Of a stretch of DNA of 64,000 nucleotides, positions 58,172-64,000 are shown piece after piece. Below the pieces are notes generated by a model that saw only the letters and a list, made by a program, of their open reading frames with translations, was not told where the DNA came from and did not search any database. The position numbers and the translations under genes are program-made. Within the stretch, counting starts at the first letter, position 1, and every line of letters begins with the position of its first letter. Source of the stretch: Hyphococcus sp. (GTDB lineage Bacteria > Pseudomonadota > Alphaproteobacteria > Caulobacterales > Parvularculaceae); contig JABDJK010000005.1 in assembly GCA_013002535.1 (NCBI GenBank), positions 1 through 64,000 of the forward strand. The letters run 5' to 3'.

Positions 58172-59806
58172 TTAAGTGTGGTGTTCGATATTCTGATCGA
58201 TCATTGCTTTGTTGTAAGCGGCGAGCGCTTTGACACGCGACAAATAACCGACGACTTTCTCGCATTCGTCCGGATCAACAACGGGAAGGCCGTGTTGATT
58301 CGCTTCAGTCAGTTGCGCCAGCGCTTCGCCAAGGGAATGACTTGCAACAAGCCGTTCAGCGTCGGGCGAAAGCGGCGCTCCCGGCGGCATCGCCTCCATC
58401 ACTTCGCGCACACGAATCGTTTGCAAAAGAACGCCGTGCGGGCCCTCCGACAAATCATAGCCCCGCCGTGATAATTGCCAATGGAAGAATGACTGACCAC
58501 AAAGCCATTGCGTCATGACCGTTGAAATTGCGACTGCAACCATCAACGCAATAGTGATGCCGTATTCGCCTGTCATTTCGAAAACGATCAGCGTCGTAGA
58601 AATGGGCGCGCCGAGAATGGCGCCGCCAGCCGCGCCCATGCCAATCATGGCGTAGAAACCGGGGCTGGCGGTTGCGCCCGGAAACATCTGGCTGACGACG
58701 GCGCCGAACGCAGCCCCGCTAAAAGCGCCGAGCACCAATCCAGGCGAGAATACGCCGCCGCCGAATTTACAGGACAAAGTTATCGCCGTTGCCGTCAATT
58801 TCATGATGAGGAGAACCGTTAAGAGAAAAATAGAATATTCTCCAGCGAGCGCTTTTGTCACGGCTTCATACCCGACGCCGAATACTTCGGGGAAAAACGC
58901 GCCGATGAGACCAACGATAGCGCCGCCGAGCGGTGGCAAAAGCAGCGGCGAAAATTTGTATTTTTCCGCCATGTTGCGAACGCCCACAGTTAAACGCTCT
59001 GTCGATTGAAGAAAACCGCTGGCGACGAGCCCGCAGATTATGCCAAGAAATGCTGCCAGCGGCACATCAACGGGACTGATGGCGCCGTATTCCGGCGGTA
59101 TGAAAGCGGGAAAATTGCCGAGGTGAATGCGGGTGACAATTGTCGCGGTAACGCTTGCTGCGGCTATCGGGCCGAAAACTGACAGAGCGTAATTACCCAG
59201 AATGACTTCCAGTGCAAAGAGAACACCGGCGACAGGCGCATTAAAACTCGCAGAAACCGCCGCCGCCGCGCCGCATCCCAAAAGCGCCCGGCGTTGCTTT
59301 GCTGAAAACCCCATATGCCGATCCAGGAATGAAGCGATGGTCGCCCCCAGATGAACAGCGGGCCCCTCGCGCCCGGCGCTTGCGCCTGACCCAAGCGAGA
59401 CCGCCGAAACCGCAGCGGCGGCCATCCCGGCGCGCAAGCTGATTTGCCCGCCAGTAACTGCGCGCGCTTCGATAACGTCTGCGATACCTTGAGCGCGCCC
59501 GCTTTTTAGCCAGCCAAATCGATCAGCTAGGTAAAGGATTGCAGACACTACGAGCCCGCCAAGGACCGGCGCAGCCCAGGCGCGCCCAAAGGAGAGCGAT
59601 GCGGCGCCGCTGGCGACGTTTTCTTCTGTCGCGCCAAAGGCCAATTCAGAAACGATATCTATAGCGAAGCGGAACCCGATAACGGCGTATGCCGCCGCTG
59701 CGCCAATGATGATGGCGAAAATCCAGACGCGGAAAATACCGAAATTCTCAAATCGGCGCCCGGTCTTTCGGAGATAAATTAATAGTCGAGCAACATTCCG
59801 GGGCAT
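58172..59806 (-). CDS. ClC-family chloride channel/exchanger with C-terminal CBS region
   Basis: Homologue of E. coli ClcA: about 18 hydrophobic helices (about residues 25-440), with the filter motif Gly-Arg-Glu-Gly-Pro (gating glutamate) preceded by Gly-Ser-Gly-Ala-Ser-Ala. A cytosolic CBS-type region fills residues about 455-535. The first filter motif, usually Gly-Ser-Gly-Ile-Pro, reads Arg-Ala-Gln-Gly-Ile and is altered. Channel or proton-exchange mode cannot be decided from sequence. Length 544. Confidence 0.9.
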   Translation of the reverse strand: MPRNVARLLIYLRKTGRRFENFGIFRVWIFAIIIGAAAAYAVIGFRFAIDIVSELAFGATEENVASGAASLSFGRAWAAPVLGGLVVSAILYLADRFGWLKSGRAQGIADVIEARAVTGGQISLRAGMAAAAVSAVSLGSGASAGREGPAVHLGATIASFLDRHMGFSAKQRRALLGCGAAAAVSASFNAPVAGVLFALEVILGNYALSVFGPIAAASVTATIVTRIHLGNFPAFIPPEYGAISPVDVPLAAFLGIICGLVASGFLQSTERLTVGVRNMAEKYKFSPLLLPPLGGAIVGLIGAFFPEVFGVGYEAVTKALAGEYSIFLLTVLLIMKLTATAITLSCKFGGGVFSPGLVLGAFSGAAFGAVVSQMFPGATASPGFYAMIGMGAAGGAILGAPISTTLIVFEMTGEYGITIALMVAVAISTVMTQWLCGQSFFHWQLSRRGYDLSEGPHGVLLQTIRVREVMEAMPPGAPLSPDAERLVASHSLGEALAQLTEANQHGLPVVDPDECEKVVGYLSRVKALAAYNKAMIDQNIEHHT

Positions 59807-59944
59807 GAAGAACTTCGGTTAACGCGTTAAAGGTTCATAGCAGCATTCGCCGGCAAGTCGAAATGCAATGAAATGCTTAACGGCGGATTCATCCTGCTTT
59901 GCGACCATGCGGTCCTTCAAAATAAACCGGGGATACGTTTCGGC

Positions 59945-62758
59945 ATGGCAAATTCTGGCGTTCACAAACCCGCAGGCGCAAATGATAAAATCGATCCGAA
60001 GCGTGCTGCTTCCGCATTGAAACGGTGGCGCCGTTCCGTTGCCGAGGCAATCGGACAAGATCCTGGTGCGCCGCTTGACCAGCCGGATAGAAAACTCTTG
60101 ATGCTGCGCGTCTTTGGCGCAACCCAACGATTGGGTGAATTGTGTTTGATCCATCCTGACGCGGCGGCTGCTGCTCTAACAGATGGTCCGTCAACGGTGC
60201 TTGCTGAAGCAGCGAGGGATTTAACCGGACTGAAAGGCGGCGTCGGCGGCCCGGATGCGCTTCATGCCGCGTTGGCGCCGCTCAAAAATCGAGCGGAAAT
60301 CGCGATTAATCTGGGTGAACTCGGCGGGCGATGGAGCGTTGCAGACGCGACCGCGGCGCGCGTTGACTTTGCCGAACGCCTTGTTGAAACCGCGTTGCAA
60401 TGGCTCGTGCAGGCGGCCGTCAAGCGCGGCGAACTGAGCGTTGAGGATGCTGACAACTTCATGCAAGGCGTTTTCGCTGTTGCCGGCGGTGATTTCGCCC
60501 ATGAAGATCTTGCGCCTCACGGGCCAGTGGATTTGATCCTTTTGTACGACGACAAATATTTTACCGGTCAGGCTGCCCGCGGCGCCGACCGCGTTTTTGT
60601 TCGTATCGGCGCTGAGTTCCGCGAAGCCTTTGAAGGCAAGCCGGGCGAATACCCATTGTTCGCGCTGCGCACGCCTTTGGGGTCCGGAGTTGGCGGCGCA
60701 GGCTATGCTGAAGCTGCAAGCCGTGTTGAAGAAACGGCGAAAGGCCCGCAGGCGCAGAGCCTCAAGACGTGGCTCGCAACAGCGCGCATCGTCGCTGGCG
60801 ATCGAACGGCGGGCGGCGCATTTTTAGAAAAAATCGAAGATCTCGTCTGGGGCGAAACACCGATCCTCAACGATGAATTGCGCGAGGCGCTAGAGAAATC
60901 GAGCGATGATCCGCGCATGCCGTTTCGCCGTGTCGCAGACCTTTGCCGTCTGGCGATCGGCGGCGCGCGGCCCGTTTTTCGAACCGCTTCGGCAAGACAA
61001 GTTTTTGAGACGGCCGCGGAGTCGCGAGCGATCAGCAGCGACGCCATGCGCCGATTATGCGCCGGGGAGGAGCTGGCGCATCTCGTTGTTTCTCGCCTGC
61101 AAATGATTAAAGGGGCGGCGGCTGTCGAAGTGACACGCGAGGACGAACAAACCGCGCTCGCAATCCTCTGCGGTTTCGGCGCCTATGACTGTCTTGCCGC
61201 TGCGCTCGACGGCGCGCGTATTGATGCAGAAAATACGCTGCGCCGGATGATGCGCGGAACGCAAGACGAAGTCGCCTTGTATGAGAATAAAGAAGCCGCC
61301 GTTGACGACGTGGACAAACTTGAAGACCTTGGTTTCATTAATGGCGCATCACTCTCGGCCGCTGTTGATGAATGGGCGAAACGCGCTGCAGACAAACACG
61401 GCACGACCAGATTTTCGGCAATCGCGCCAGGCCTTCTGACGACGCTCGGTGAAACGCAAAAACCTGAAGCCGCGATCCGCCGTCTGGACCAACTGATCGA
61501 GAACTGTGATGAAGGGCGCGATGTCTTTTCGTTGTTTGGCGAAGGCGCCCCGCAAAGAGACGCAATTATTGACGCGTTTGGTTGTTTCGGCGCCGCAGTG
61601 GAACCGCTGGTCGGCGATGCAACCTCTATCGACTTTATTTTCGATCAAGAAAACGGCGCGGTGCCAGAGACAGCCGACGAGTGGATTTCGCGGTTTGCGC
61701 CGCCGGCGATCACCGCCGGCGTTAAAATTGAAGAAATTGGCGCCTGGCGCTGTCAGACTATCGCCAAGATTGCCTATTGTGCGGCAAGCGGCGCCACTTC
61801 GTTTGATGCGGCCGCGCGCGCGCTCGAAAAAATTCACATCAGAACGTTGGCCGATACTTACAAGTTCGCGATGTTAACCGCCAAAGGTGAAAAAGCGGCG
61901 GCGGCGCGCGATATCGCAGTTCATATTTATGACGGTGCGGGCGCTCATGTGCCGGGTGCGGCGACATCTATCGGCTTTATGGCGGGCAATCGCGTTACTG
62001 AGGCCGGGGAAACTTTCGTCAAAGACTATCTCGTCATGCTCGACAGCCTCGGCGGTGGCGTCTTTGCCATCGTGCCGGACACAACGCATCGACCAGGCGG
62101 CGTTAGCGGCGCGCTTGTGCCAGACGTCGAAGCATTCAAGGGTTTTGTTCAATCAGAAGCAGTTGCCTACGAGCAGATTATGCTGGCGCGCGGCCGCGTC
62201 GTAGCTGGCGAAAGCGCCATCGCTGATGCCGCGCACGACGCCCTTCGTCATGCAGTTTCGGGCGCCCGCCGCGCTGACATATTATTTCGCGACCTTGACC
62301 GCGCGCGCGCTCAACAGATGCGTCGCAATCGTCCGAATTCAGAATGGGATATCGATCGCCTTGATGGCGGCCGCATGGACGCTGAGCTCGTTATCAGCTC
62401 ACTGATCTATCGCCACGCGCCAACTCACCCGTCGCTTCAAGAAAAGAGCGTTGATGAGGCATTGAATATCATGGCTCGGTCCGGTCTCATTAGCGAGGAC
62501 GCCGCAAAAGCGCTGCAATCAGCGCGGGCCTTCTGGATGCGATTGCAGGTCGCCCGCGCTTTTGCGCTATGGAGCGATCCGGTTCGCGAACCGGTGCGCC
62601 CGCGTTTCGGCGCGGTTATCGCTCGCGCCGCCGGCGTTGAAAGATACGATCAGGTCCGGCCGTTGATGCTGGGATATGCCGATGACATTTTGCGTATGTA
62701 TTCGCAATTCGTTCTTGGACGTCCGCCACTTAGCGTTGTGGCGCAAGCCGCCGGTTAA
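59945..62758 (+). CDS. GlnE-like protein with degenerate adenylyltransferase motifs
   Basis: The whole 937-residue chain follows the plan of glutamine-synthetase adenylyltransferase. The central linker has Leu-Glu-Asp-Leu-Gly-Phe near 459. The second transferase half has Arg-Pro-Gly-Gly near 717 and Arg-Gly-Arg-Val-Val-Ala-Gly soon after. The C-terminal helical domain has Gly-Gly-Arg-Met-Asp-Ala-Glu near 805. The catalytic motifs are damaged. In the N-terminal domain the expected Ser-Asp-x-Asp-Leu reads Gly-Pro-Val-Asp-Leu (about 193-197), losing the first aspartate. In the C-terminal domain no Gly-Lys-x-Gly/Ser-Asp-x-Asp block is seen. The chain is unbroken with coding-like composition, so it is maintained. 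The ATG at 59873 is an alternative start. It may be a regulator rather than an enzyme. Confidence 0.78.
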   Translation: MANSGVHKPAGANDKIDPKRAASALKRWRRSVAEAIGQDPGAPLDQPDRKLLMLRVFGATQRLGELCLIHPDAAAAALTDGPSTVLAEAARDLTGLKGGVGGPDALHAALAPLKNRAEIAINLGELGGRWSVADATAARVDFAERLVETALQWLVQAAVKRGELSVEDADNFMQGVFAVAGGDFAHEDLAPHGPVDLILLYDDKYFTGQAARGADRVFVRIGAEFREAFEGKPGEYPLFALRTPLGSGVGGAGYAEAASRVEETAKGPQAQSLKTWLATARIVAGDRTAGGAFLEKIEDLVWGETPILNDELREALEKSSDDPRMPFRRVADLCRLAIGGARPVFRTASARQVFETAAESRAISSDAMRRLCAGEELAHLVVSRLQMIKGAAAVEVTREDEQTALAILCGFGAYDCLAAALDGARIDAENTLRRMMRGTQDEVALYENKEAAVDDVDKLEDLGFINGASLSAAVDEWAKRAADKHGTTRFSAIAPGLLTTLGETQKPEAAIRRLDQLIENCDEGRDVFSLFGEGAPQRDAIIDAFGCFGAAVEPLVGDATSIDFIFDQENGAVPETADEWISRFAPPAITAGVKIEEIGAWRCQTIAKIAYCAASGATSFDAAARALEKIHIRTLADTYKFAMLTAKGEKAAAARDIAVHIYDGAGAHVPGAATSIGFMAGNRVTEAGETFVKDYLVMLDSLGGGVFAIVPDTTHRPGGVSGALVPDVEAFKGFVQSEAVAYEQIMLARGRVVAGESAIADAAHDALRHAVSGARRADILFRDLDRARAQQMRRNRPNSEWDIDRLDGGRMDAELVISSLIYRHAPTHPSLQEKSVDEALNIMARSGLISEDAAKALQSARAFWMRLQVARAFALWSDPVREPVRPRFGAVIARAAGVERYDQVRPLMLGYADDILRMYSQFVLGRPPLSVVAQAAG

Positions 62759-62973
62759 TCACCTTTGGCTAGTGATTTCAGGACGAACACCCGCAAAGCC
62801 GATGCGAGCCCCGGCGGCGGTGAGGATTTTAGTCGCCGCCGATCAATATCGCTAATCAATTCCGGAAGCGTACGCCCGGCGGTTGTCGCTAGGCTATCGA
62901 GCTCTGTCCAGAATTCTTCCTCAAGGGCGATGCTGGTGCGATGGCCTTTAAGGGTAATTGATCTCTTCAACAT
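62755..62973 (-). CDS. Ribbon-helix-helix domain protein
   Basis: A 72-residue protein of the alphaproteobacterial RHH_4 type: an N-terminal beta strand with Arg-Ser-Ile-Thr-Leu-Lys-Gly-His-Arg-Thr-Ser, then two helices (Glu-Phe-Trp-Thr-Glu-Leu; Leu-Pro-Glu-Leu-Ile). Probably a DNA-binding dimer. The start at 62973 is chosen because the family begins here; no Shine-Dalgarno is seen, and instead a hairpin ends 4 bases upstream. It lies downstream of fumC and a small hypothetical gene, and overlaps the GlnE-like stop by 4 bases. Confidence 0.82.
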   Translation of the reverse strand: MLKRSITLKGHRTSIALEEEFWTELDSLATTAGRTLPELISDIDRRRLKSSPPPGLASALRVFVLKSLAKGD

Positions 62974-62977
62974 CAAA

Positions 62978-63008
62978 CGAACCCGGCTCGTATTCCGAAC
63001 CGGGTTCG
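62978..63008 (-). promoter_or_regulatory. Inverted repeat directly before the RHH gene start
   Basis: CGAACCCGG and CCGGGTTCG form a 9-base perfect stem with a 13-base loop, ending 4 bases before the ATG, where a ribosome site should be. It could be an operator bound by the RHH protein itself, an mRNA hairpin limiting translation, or a weak terminator for the upstream small gene. Confidence 0.5.
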
Positions 63009-63049
63009 CTGATTTTACCGTGCAAGTAAAGAGACAAGCGGTGAGGGCC

Positions 63050-63271
63050 TTAGTTCTTGGCCCAGTTATCGACGCCATGGGCGCGAATTTTTGTTGTCGC
63101 CAAGGTAACGCCGTCAATGACGCCGGCCATATGCGAAACGGCTTCCGCATCGGCGCTGGAAAGGTCTGCGCCAAGGGCGCCGTATAATTTTTCTATATCG
63201 ATATTGTGCGCGAAGAGAAATTGCACAAGCTGCAGTCGAAGCTGGCTGTCAGAAATTTTGTTGTCCGCCAT
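63050..63271 (-). CDS. Small hypothetical protein between fumC and the RHH gene
   Basis: A 73-residue, mostly helical soluble protein (Asn-Lys-Ile-Ser-Asp-Ser-Gln-Leu-Arg near the N-terminus; an amphipathic Ala/Glu segment about 35-55). I do not recognise the family. The ATG at 63271 has GGA about 8 bases upstream, while the frame opens earlier at 63361. It is co-directional with fumC and may be read from the same message. Confidence 0.55.
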   Translation of the reverse strand: MADNKISDSQLRLQLVQFLFAHNIDIEKLYGALGADLSSADAEAVSHMAGVIDGVTLATTKIRAHGVDNWAKN

Positions 63272-63394: not shown

Positions 63395-64000
63395 CTATTG
63401 CGGCCTCACCATTTTTTCCGGTCGAACGATTTTATCGTACTCATCAGCAGTAACGAAGCCCAAATTTACCGCCTCTTCGCGCAGGGTTGTCCCATTTTTG
63501 TGCGCTGTCTTGGCGATTCTCGTTGCGTTGTCATAGCCGATTATCGGCGCCAGCGCCGTCACCAGCATTAACGACTGTTCCATGAGCGCGTTGATGCGCG
63601 ATTGATTGGCCTCAATTCCGACGACGCATTTGTCAGTGAAGGAATACGCGCTATCGGCGAGAAGCCGGATCGATTGCAACGTATTGTATATGATCACCGG
63701 CTTGAAAACGTTGAGTTCAAAATGTCCCTGACTGCCGGCAAAACTGACTGTCGTATTGTTGCCCATAACCTGTGCGCAGACCATGGTTATTGCCTCACAC
63801 TGGGTTGGGTTCACTTTGCCGGGCATAATGGATGAGCCGGGTTCATTTTCCGGCAAGCTTATCTCACCGAGACCCGAGCGCGGACCCGAGCCCAGCAACC
63901 GGATGTCATTGGCAATCTTGAAAAGGCTGACAGCGACTTCATTAAGCGCGCCGTGGGCCTCGACCATGCCATCGTGGGTTCCGAGAGCTTCGAATTTGTT
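63395..64000 (-). CDS. fumC: Class II fumarate hydratase, C-terminal part (runs off the window)
   Basis: Interconverts fumarate and malate in the TCA cycle. The superfamily signature [12 protein letters not shown], with the catalytic serine, is present. So are the Gln-Gly-His-Phe-Glu-Leu-Asn and Thr-Ala-His-Lys-Asn-Gly-Thr-Thr-Leu segments. About 200 C-terminal residues are in the window; the N-terminal half lies beyond 64000. Confidence 0.95.

Follow-up and report, generated by a model that had tools for sequence, protein, structure and literature searches.

A conserved GlnE paralogue with two probably inactive catalytic sites, found together with canonical GlnE in Hyphococcus and its relatives

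Textbooks present the cycle formed by glutamine synthetase (GS), PII and the bifunctional enzyme GlnE as a bicyclic cascade, and its set of proteins is treated as closed. GlnE (PF03710; PRK14108; PDB entries 1v4a and 3k7d) carries tandem nucleotidyltransferase (NT) and helical domains joined by a linker, and the available part of PMC11646218 describes an NT signature with three acidic residues. Pseudoenzymes as such are known in many families; a candidate for a similar way of working is the trypanosomatid prozyme, a dead copy that stands beside the active enzyme in the same cell and, in the accessible text of PMC5201418, is reported to form a functional complex with it. Here we describe a gene at positions 59945 to 62758 of the first 64,000 nucleotides (the window, meaning the whole stretch analysed) of contig JABDJK010000005.1 from Hyphococcus sp. 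(assembly GCA_013002535.1, family Parvularculaceae). Comparison shows its predicted product to be an old GlnE paralogue that keeps the tandem NT-plus-helical architecture, has lost the acidic sets of both catalytic sites, occurs beside an intact canonical GlnE and is under strong purifying selection; it is here named pseudo-GlnE. The features of the gene are as follows, where AR and AT stand for the adenylyl-removing and adenylyl-transferring domains.

59945..62758, + strand: pseudo-GlnE coding sequence, 937 amino acids, start at a conserved MA.. N-terminus
60485..60532, + strand: pseudo-site 1 (AR-like domain), residues 181-196, GGDFAHEDLAPHGPVD; Pro194 in place of the first Asp, with the glycine motif and the second acidic residue retained
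60656..60694, + strand: site-1 third-acid block, residues 238-250; the canonical DxRLRP stretch reads LRTPLGSG, and E. coli D223 corresponds to R242
61286..61624, + strand: equivalent of the linker and regulatory region, residues 448-560, with LEDLGF and APGLLT motifs
61913..61990, + strand: pseudo-site 2 (AT-like domain), residues 657-682; two predicted strands, both SDxD Asp lost
62063..62110, + strand: site-2 third-acid block, residues 707-722, FAIVPDTTHRPGGVSG; D712, equivalent to E. coli D752, kept
62225..62734, + strand: C-terminal helical domain, residues 761-930; more positions conserved within the pseudo-GlnE family than in any other region (62 at a level of at least 90%)

The reading frame contains no internal stop, and the coordinates and the length of 937 residues given by a first-pass annotation, made from the letters alone, were right; a second in-frame start candidate lies at 59873. 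The protein matches PF03710 above its gathering score (53.8 bits, cut-off 24) and also GlnD_UR_UTase (23.1 bits, cut-off 21), and it falls below the cut-off of the NCBIfam GlnE equivalog PRK14108 (155.4 bits against 724).

The catalytic sites were compared in an alignment of 72 rows, namely E. coli GlnE, 42 canonical GlnE sequences and 29 paralogues (one per genome, that of the window included; the partial copies of G005 and G011 were left out). Six Asp residues of E. coli GlnE (173, 175 and 223; 701, 703 and 752) were taken by us to be the three acidic residues of each NT site, and all six are Asp in 42/42 canonical rows. Site 1 of the window protein reads AGGDFAHEDLAPHGPVDL, so that the E. 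coli SSDID becomes HGPVD: D173 is replaced by P194, D175 is kept as D196 and D223 is replaced by R242. At site 2 there is no SDxD; D701 and D703 are gone and the third Asp, D752, is kept as D712. The same holds across the paralogue rows, where D173 is Pro in 29/29, D175 is Asp in 18 and Glu in 11 (acidic in all 29), D223 is Arg in 17, Lys in 11 and Thr in one, neither D701 nor D703 is Asp in any of the 29, and D752 is Asp in 27. The AR set (D173, D175, D223) and the AT set (D701, D703, D752) are thus each incomplete in every paralogue. Since the losses at D173, D223, D701 and D703 are found in 29/29 rows, neither site retains a full acidic set, and both catalytic centres probably are dead. Placed against the active GlnE family, the protein has the length, the PF03710 match and the domain architecture, and lacks both Asp sets and a PRK14108 score above cut-off.

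The site-1 pattern hG[GSA]x(9,13)Ph[DE]h occurs in 33/37 pseudo-GlnE sequences; the four misses are two C-terminal fragments without site 1 (G500c and G591), one partial sequence (G019) and one full-length sequence (G008). The gaps at site 2 of the Parvularculaceae rows differ between two MAFFT runs, and the SDxD Asp pair is absent in both; the letters SDLD at residue 699 of the G004 row lie outside the site. The alignment bears out what the first-pass annotation had read, that the N-terminal Ser-Asp-x-Asp has become Gly-Pro-x-Asp and that the second half holds no SDxD. Its wider claim that both active sites were lost is supported, neither Asp set being intact, with the correction that one acidic residue survives per site (two of the six Asp).

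A second, canonical glnE, which the same annotation had suggested looking for, was found on another contig of the genome (C83:62532 onward), with both sites intact (SSDID and ASDID), PF03710 domains of 170 and 201 bits and a score of 930 bits against PRK14108; the paralogue is therefore no stand-in for GlnE. A PF03710 domain of at least 181 bits, far above the paralogue scores, is present in each of the 24 genomes of the genus that were searched (the window's included), and 16 other genomes of the order likewise match PF03710 over its cut-off. A single GS match was found in the window's genome and retains DLYDLP, which we take to be the sequence context of the adenylylated Tyr.

Selection was estimated with the Nei-Gojobori method (NG86) as omega, the ratio of non-synonymous to synonymous substitution rates, over 13 genome pairs, one of which was saturated for the canonical copy. 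Omega was 0.04-0.13 for the paralogue and 0.10-0.20 for canonical glnE, with the paralogue lower in 12/12 computable pairs, where NG86 saturates, synonymous divergence (dS) exceeds 1 in several pairs and the pairs are not independent; the cleanest comparison is the trio G006, G007 and G010 (dS 0.43-0.49). Over 276 pairs from 24 genomes the paralogue was more conserved than canonical GlnE in 273 (median identity 66% against 56%). As controls, ClC and fumC were measured where readable in the same genomes: six pairs were available for ClC, and the paralogue was lower in five of them and nearly the same in the sixth (0.129, ClC 0.125). For fumC, with three pairs, it was lower in two and higher in the third (0.129, fumC 0.076). 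The exception is G009/G022 in both cases. With an omega close to that of these housekeeping neighbours the gene is not in decay. Canonical GlnE of the genus (for example L035:6350-9268) evolves faster than the pseudo copy, ClC and fumC, which might reflect relaxed or shifted constraint beside the pseudo copy.

The set of conserved positions has also changed. Over residues 60-930, positions were counted as near-invariant in canonical GlnE at a level of at least 95% of 42 rows, and as conserved in the paralogue at a level of at least 90% of 28 rows (G019 left out). Among the 154 near-invariant canonical positions, 103 have a different majority letter in the paralogue. Among the 269 paralogue-conserved positions, summed over seven regions, 37 are shared with GlnE and 206 are its own, meaning that canonical GlnE has another majority letter or is less than 60% conserved there. 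Its own positions are most numerous in the C-terminal helices, with 49, followed by the N-terminal helices with 43 and the site-1 domain with 37, and such a new set fits a protein that may have been retained for binding. The linker and helical landmarks that the first-pass annotation took as kept are recognisable but weak, in a protein where most near-invariant positions have changed.

An AlphaFold2 model of moderate confidence, built from 26 aligned sequences, predicts strands and helices in both halves, in agreement with two NT-plus-helical units joined by a linker. Foldseek matches in the PDB at E<=0.001 came solely from E. coli GlnE: two chains of 3k7d, and 1v4a, which between them represent the two GlnE halves. 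With VIA-align, residues ~500-925 matched 1v4a (Z 27.7, 391 residues, 3.5 A) and 3k7d (Z 27.6, 396 residues, 4.7 A), and many further matches have Z values of 8 or less. The GlnE fold is hence recognisable in the predicted model, on which the annotation had proposed a comparison. Residues 101-448 also matched the adenylyltransferase domain of DrrA/SidM (Z 18.8, 304 residues, 4.1 A), a likeness of NT fold in structure for which no sequence relation is claimed; DrrA carries a G-x11-D-x-D motif, according to the accessible part of PMC12409994, whereas the window protein lacks it.

In the family sample the paralogue was found in 39/62 genomes (whole, or partial at contig ends; the two copies were split by score), comprising 27/28 genomes of the window's genus and those of three other genera (g14, 9/9; g16, 1/1; g13, 2/3). 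Genomes scored as lacking it gave either no match or only weak ones of the kind that canonical GlnE gives, and no stop was seen within any paralogue match listed. In the sole genome of the window's genus without the gene (G014, 86% complete), just 520 bases separate fumC from a contig end in the direction where the gene is expected, and an assembly gap could explain the absence; completeness is 66% for the g13 genome that lacks it. The order sample (E<=1e-100) gave 37/299 genomes with the paralogue, all of them Parvularculaceae and from 4/54 genera. A scan of named genomes returned 27 loci, titled Marinicaulis, Parvularcula, Amphiplicatus, or just Parvularculaceae or Alphaproteobacteria bacterium, and a plasmid search returned 29 records, every one below 60% identity. 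A phylum-wide search (E<=1e-40) matched 78/398 genomes; its profile was wider, and canonical GlnE reaches as much as 409 bits against it. The eight loci read outside the genus in that search (L208-L215) have four intact motifs each and include no new pseudo-GlnE, a reading in which fragments or weaker members could be missed.

More distant relatives were found with a paralogue profile across the class (E<=1e-25), which matched 52/385 genomes. Two families from other orders, f95 and f127, scored 358-554 bits (best piece per genome) and an f141 fragment (G436) 120.6 bits; the other listed matches outside the window's genome reached at most 113 bits, apart from a second piece of G500 (209), and those of 90-113 bits were assigned as canonical by score and place. 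The paralogue is present in 5/5 genomes of the f95 order (G390, G668, G500, G591 and G681; three as fragments) and in 2/2 of the f127 order (G422 and G525). Canonical GlnE was found in six of these seven and not in G591, which is 83% complete; all four catalytic motifs are present in four of the six, three by pattern in G500 and two in the incomplete G681 copy.

The four full-length f95 and f127 proteins are 26-29% identical to the window protein. As in the window protein, the first site-1 Asp is Pro wherever that part is present (G500 and G591 entered the distant-site alignment as C-terminal parts without site 1, and the N-terminal part of G500 was read separately), and the third site-1 Asp is His or Asn in the distant rows. 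Their site 2 is less eroded: in six aligned rows only the first Asp, D701, is lost (to Pro), position 703 is Asp or Glu and D752 is kept, and the second and third acidic positions are likewise kept in G681. In a tree of 46 rows, from which the fragments G436 and G681 were left out (and the partial G019 from an earlier tree), the 17 pseudo-GlnE rows, including those of G390, G668, G500, G591, G422 and G525, form one clade (Shimodaira-Hasegawa-like approximate likelihood ratio test, SH-aLRT, 100) with a long stem, apart from the 28 canonical rows. This clade joins the E. coli outgroup through long branches, which were flagged; the rooting is unsure and the depth of the duplication undated. A recent duplication inside Parvularculaceae was considered and is ruled out by the relatives in two other orders and by the separation of the pseudo-GlnE clade from the Parvularculaceae canonical copies.

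The genes around pseudo-GlnE in the window are listed here.

58172..59806, - strand: ClC chloride channel (PF00654, by Pfam), upstream neighbour
59807..59944, no strand: divergent intergenic region between ClC and pseudo-GlnE, conserved in the genus
62755..63174, - strand: RHH_4 open reading frame, convergent neighbour; its C-terminal half is a ribbon-helix-helix domain (PF13467, 84.5 bits)
63395..64000, - strand: C-terminal part of fumC (Lyase_1 and FumaraseC_C), running off the window

The f127 and Marinicaulis flavus loci have the same order and orientation around pseudo-GlnE, with ClC upstream on the opposite strand, RHH_4, fumC and SspB downstream on the opposite strand, and thyA further on the same strand. 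By Pfam, the identity of fumC, SspB and thyA is confirmed at both loci; that of ClC is confirmed for f127 and the window, and that of RHH_4 for f127, L086 and the window. Among 36 readable loci of 37 (the window's included) an RHH_4 motif lies convergent downstream in at least 29 (one at 7 kb) and a ClC motif upstream in at least 21, lower bounds given that several loci are too short and that the motif patterns miss some copies. In f95 (L174) fumC is nearby with a coenzyme A (CoA)-transferase family III gene in between, and in four genomes of the family without the paralogue (G082, G091, G050 and G077) that flank of fumC is occupied by other genes. In f127, genes of two small families, RHH_4 and DUF4169, stand between pseudo-GlnE and fumC (L175:10992-11523, L176:11411-11918). 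The intergenic region 59807-59944 keeps the series TCATATCAGCATT ... GTCTAAATGTCAC ... TTAACG ... GCTTTG in most of 13 aligned rows. The fumC of G063 (L186, C1:1773600-1774987) is split over two adjacent frames, covering residues 1-325 and 321-463, which may reflect a frameshift or an error of assembly.

Catalytic motifs are lost here in a gene that is intact and constrained, and it is very probable that pseudo-GlnE is a conserved pseudoenzyme, not a decaying copy. This agrees with the first-pass annotation, which had argued against decay, as the omega below that of the active copy and the presence in nearly all genomes of the genus now do; of the two findings that it had named as speaking against it, intact Asp sets at both sites and rapid loss in relatives, neither was seen, and several genera of the family lack the gene. 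That a duplicate is on its way to becoming a pseudogene could be read from the degeneration of both sites and from the gene not being found in five genera of the family or in other families of the order sample, but the NG86 result rules decay out, with omega below that of active glnE, there is no stop in any listed match, and the gene is spread across four genera and two other orders; we regard it as vanishingly improbable. The simplest history would be a single silenced GlnE copy, already beside fumC in the common ancestor and lost later in many lines. The same pseudoenzyme could instead have moved by horizontal transfer between three lineages, which would be compatible with any function. The patchy distribution (4/54 genera of the order sample), the long stem and unsure rooting, and the disagreement of the pseudo-GlnE and canonical trees on the placement of G145 and on the grouping of f95 and f127 speak for transfer; however, the gene order is colinear between Parvularculaceae and f127, and the two trees, compared by eye, look broadly similar within the genus. 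Transfer seems unlikely to us.

As to function, a new regulatory or scaffolding role may sensibly be inferred from a constrained pseudoenzyme, and the account that we tentatively favour as a whole is that of an old silenced GlnE paralogue acting as a binding module, likeliest on GS, PII or GlnE. Pseudo-GlnE would work by binding without adenylyl transfer; it could bind GS, PII or active GlnE, whether as decoy, as scaffold or as allosteric partner, and thereby bias either adenylylation or deadenylylation. A partner in this circuit, which we propose with somewhat more hesitation, is suggested by descent, the protein from which this architecture derives being one that handles GS and PII. With its glycine motif and one acidic residue kept, site 1 may still serve as a sensor by holding a nucleotide or a metabolite. 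In its fullest form, which we consider doubtful, an extra and ancient component of the GS cycle would exist in one branch of Alphaproteobacteria, where a ligand-sensing, non-catalytic GlnE binds GS, PII or GlnE and the pair of active and inactive GlnE sets adenylylation. Several results weigh against a role in this circuit. The gene was not found in g12 (0/10), g15 (0/6), g17 (0/3), g18 (0/1) and g19 (0/1), 0/21 in five genera of the family, and was not found outside the family in the 299 genomes of the order sample (E<=1e-100), so the canonical circuit functions without it. GS and PII copy numbers, counted in 62 genomes of the family, do not track with it by eye. In the linker and regulatory region 15/20 near-invariant canonical positions have changed, the AlphaFold2 model has a mean predicted local distance difference test (pLDDT) score of 72.8 and a predicted TM-score (pTM) of 0.51, and the site-1 loops (185-194, 232-244 and 246-251) are mostly below pLDDT 50. 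Neither a reading of the loci by eye nor Pfam on ten neighbours revealed a nitrogen gene beside it. Upstream regions of 250 bases, 27 in all for the 29 paralogues, were scanned with consensus patterns for sigma-54 and NtrC sites, and none was convincing. This last scan gave two sigma-54-like matches (two mismatches) and five NtrC-like matches (three mismatches), recurring only in the near-identical G006, G007 and G010. The suggestion of nitrogen control in the first-pass annotation thus gains no positive evidence from neighbours, promoter sites or copy numbers. However, the genes of the E. coli glnE cascade are themselves reported as not nitrogen-regulated, in the title of a 1993 paper cited in the available part of PMC12409994, so a missing nitrogen linkage says little.

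The GlnE scaffold could also have been re-used for an unrelated partner or ligand outside nitrogen control, with its GS and PII surfaces lost. The 103/154 altered positions and the 206 new ones fit this, the recurrent neighbours ClC, RHH_4, fumC, SspB and thyA are non-nitrogen genes, and the upstream regions hold no convincing NtrC or sigma-54 site. The nearest neighbours, however, are on the opposite strand and thus indicate no operon, nor any other role, and the architecture and linker motif are still GlnE-like; we hold this reading to be possible and rather doubtful. A last alternative is that the protein is not dead and transfers nucleotides or removes AMP in an unorthodox way, with GS or something else as its substrate, through one acidic residue per site or through migrated residues. 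The site-1 pattern in 33/37 sequences, the acidic residue at 175 in 29/29 and the D or E at 703 together with D752 in the six f95 and f127 rows are in line with it, as are the precedents of Tam41, with one of three acidic residues (PMC11646218, in its available part), and SelO, which AMPylates despite missing the kinase catalytic Asp (PMC12409994, likewise). Yet the first site-1 Asp is Pro in every row with the site, the third is Arg, Lys or Thr, or His or Asn in distant rows, site 2 of the Parvularculaceae has neither SDxD Asp, and the usual two-metal chemistry of the fold would need acidic residues that are now gone. We find such an enzyme quite improbable.

No description of a second or inactive GlnE was found in the open-access literature searched, and the accessible part of a survey of GS adenylyltransferases (PMC4454073) mentions none; in that literature the conserved GlnE pseudoenzyme appears new. 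If the favoured account of a binding module is true, a GlnE-derived pseudoenzyme that occurs in several genera and three orders, under constraint tighter than that of the active enzyme where measured, would be a missing regulator of the cascade, or would show cleanly how a large bifunctional enzyme can be re-used as a binding protein. The case also calls for caution, as a Pfam-level GlnE label can name a protein that is probably unable to do the reaction, and it offers a natural family for asking which non-catalytic GlnE surfaces matter. The pseudo and canonical glnE copies were found ~55-90 kb apart on one contig in eight genomes of the genus (G003, G004, G009, G016, G020, G021, G022 and G023), for example at C1:517835-520639 and 594107-596812 in G004.

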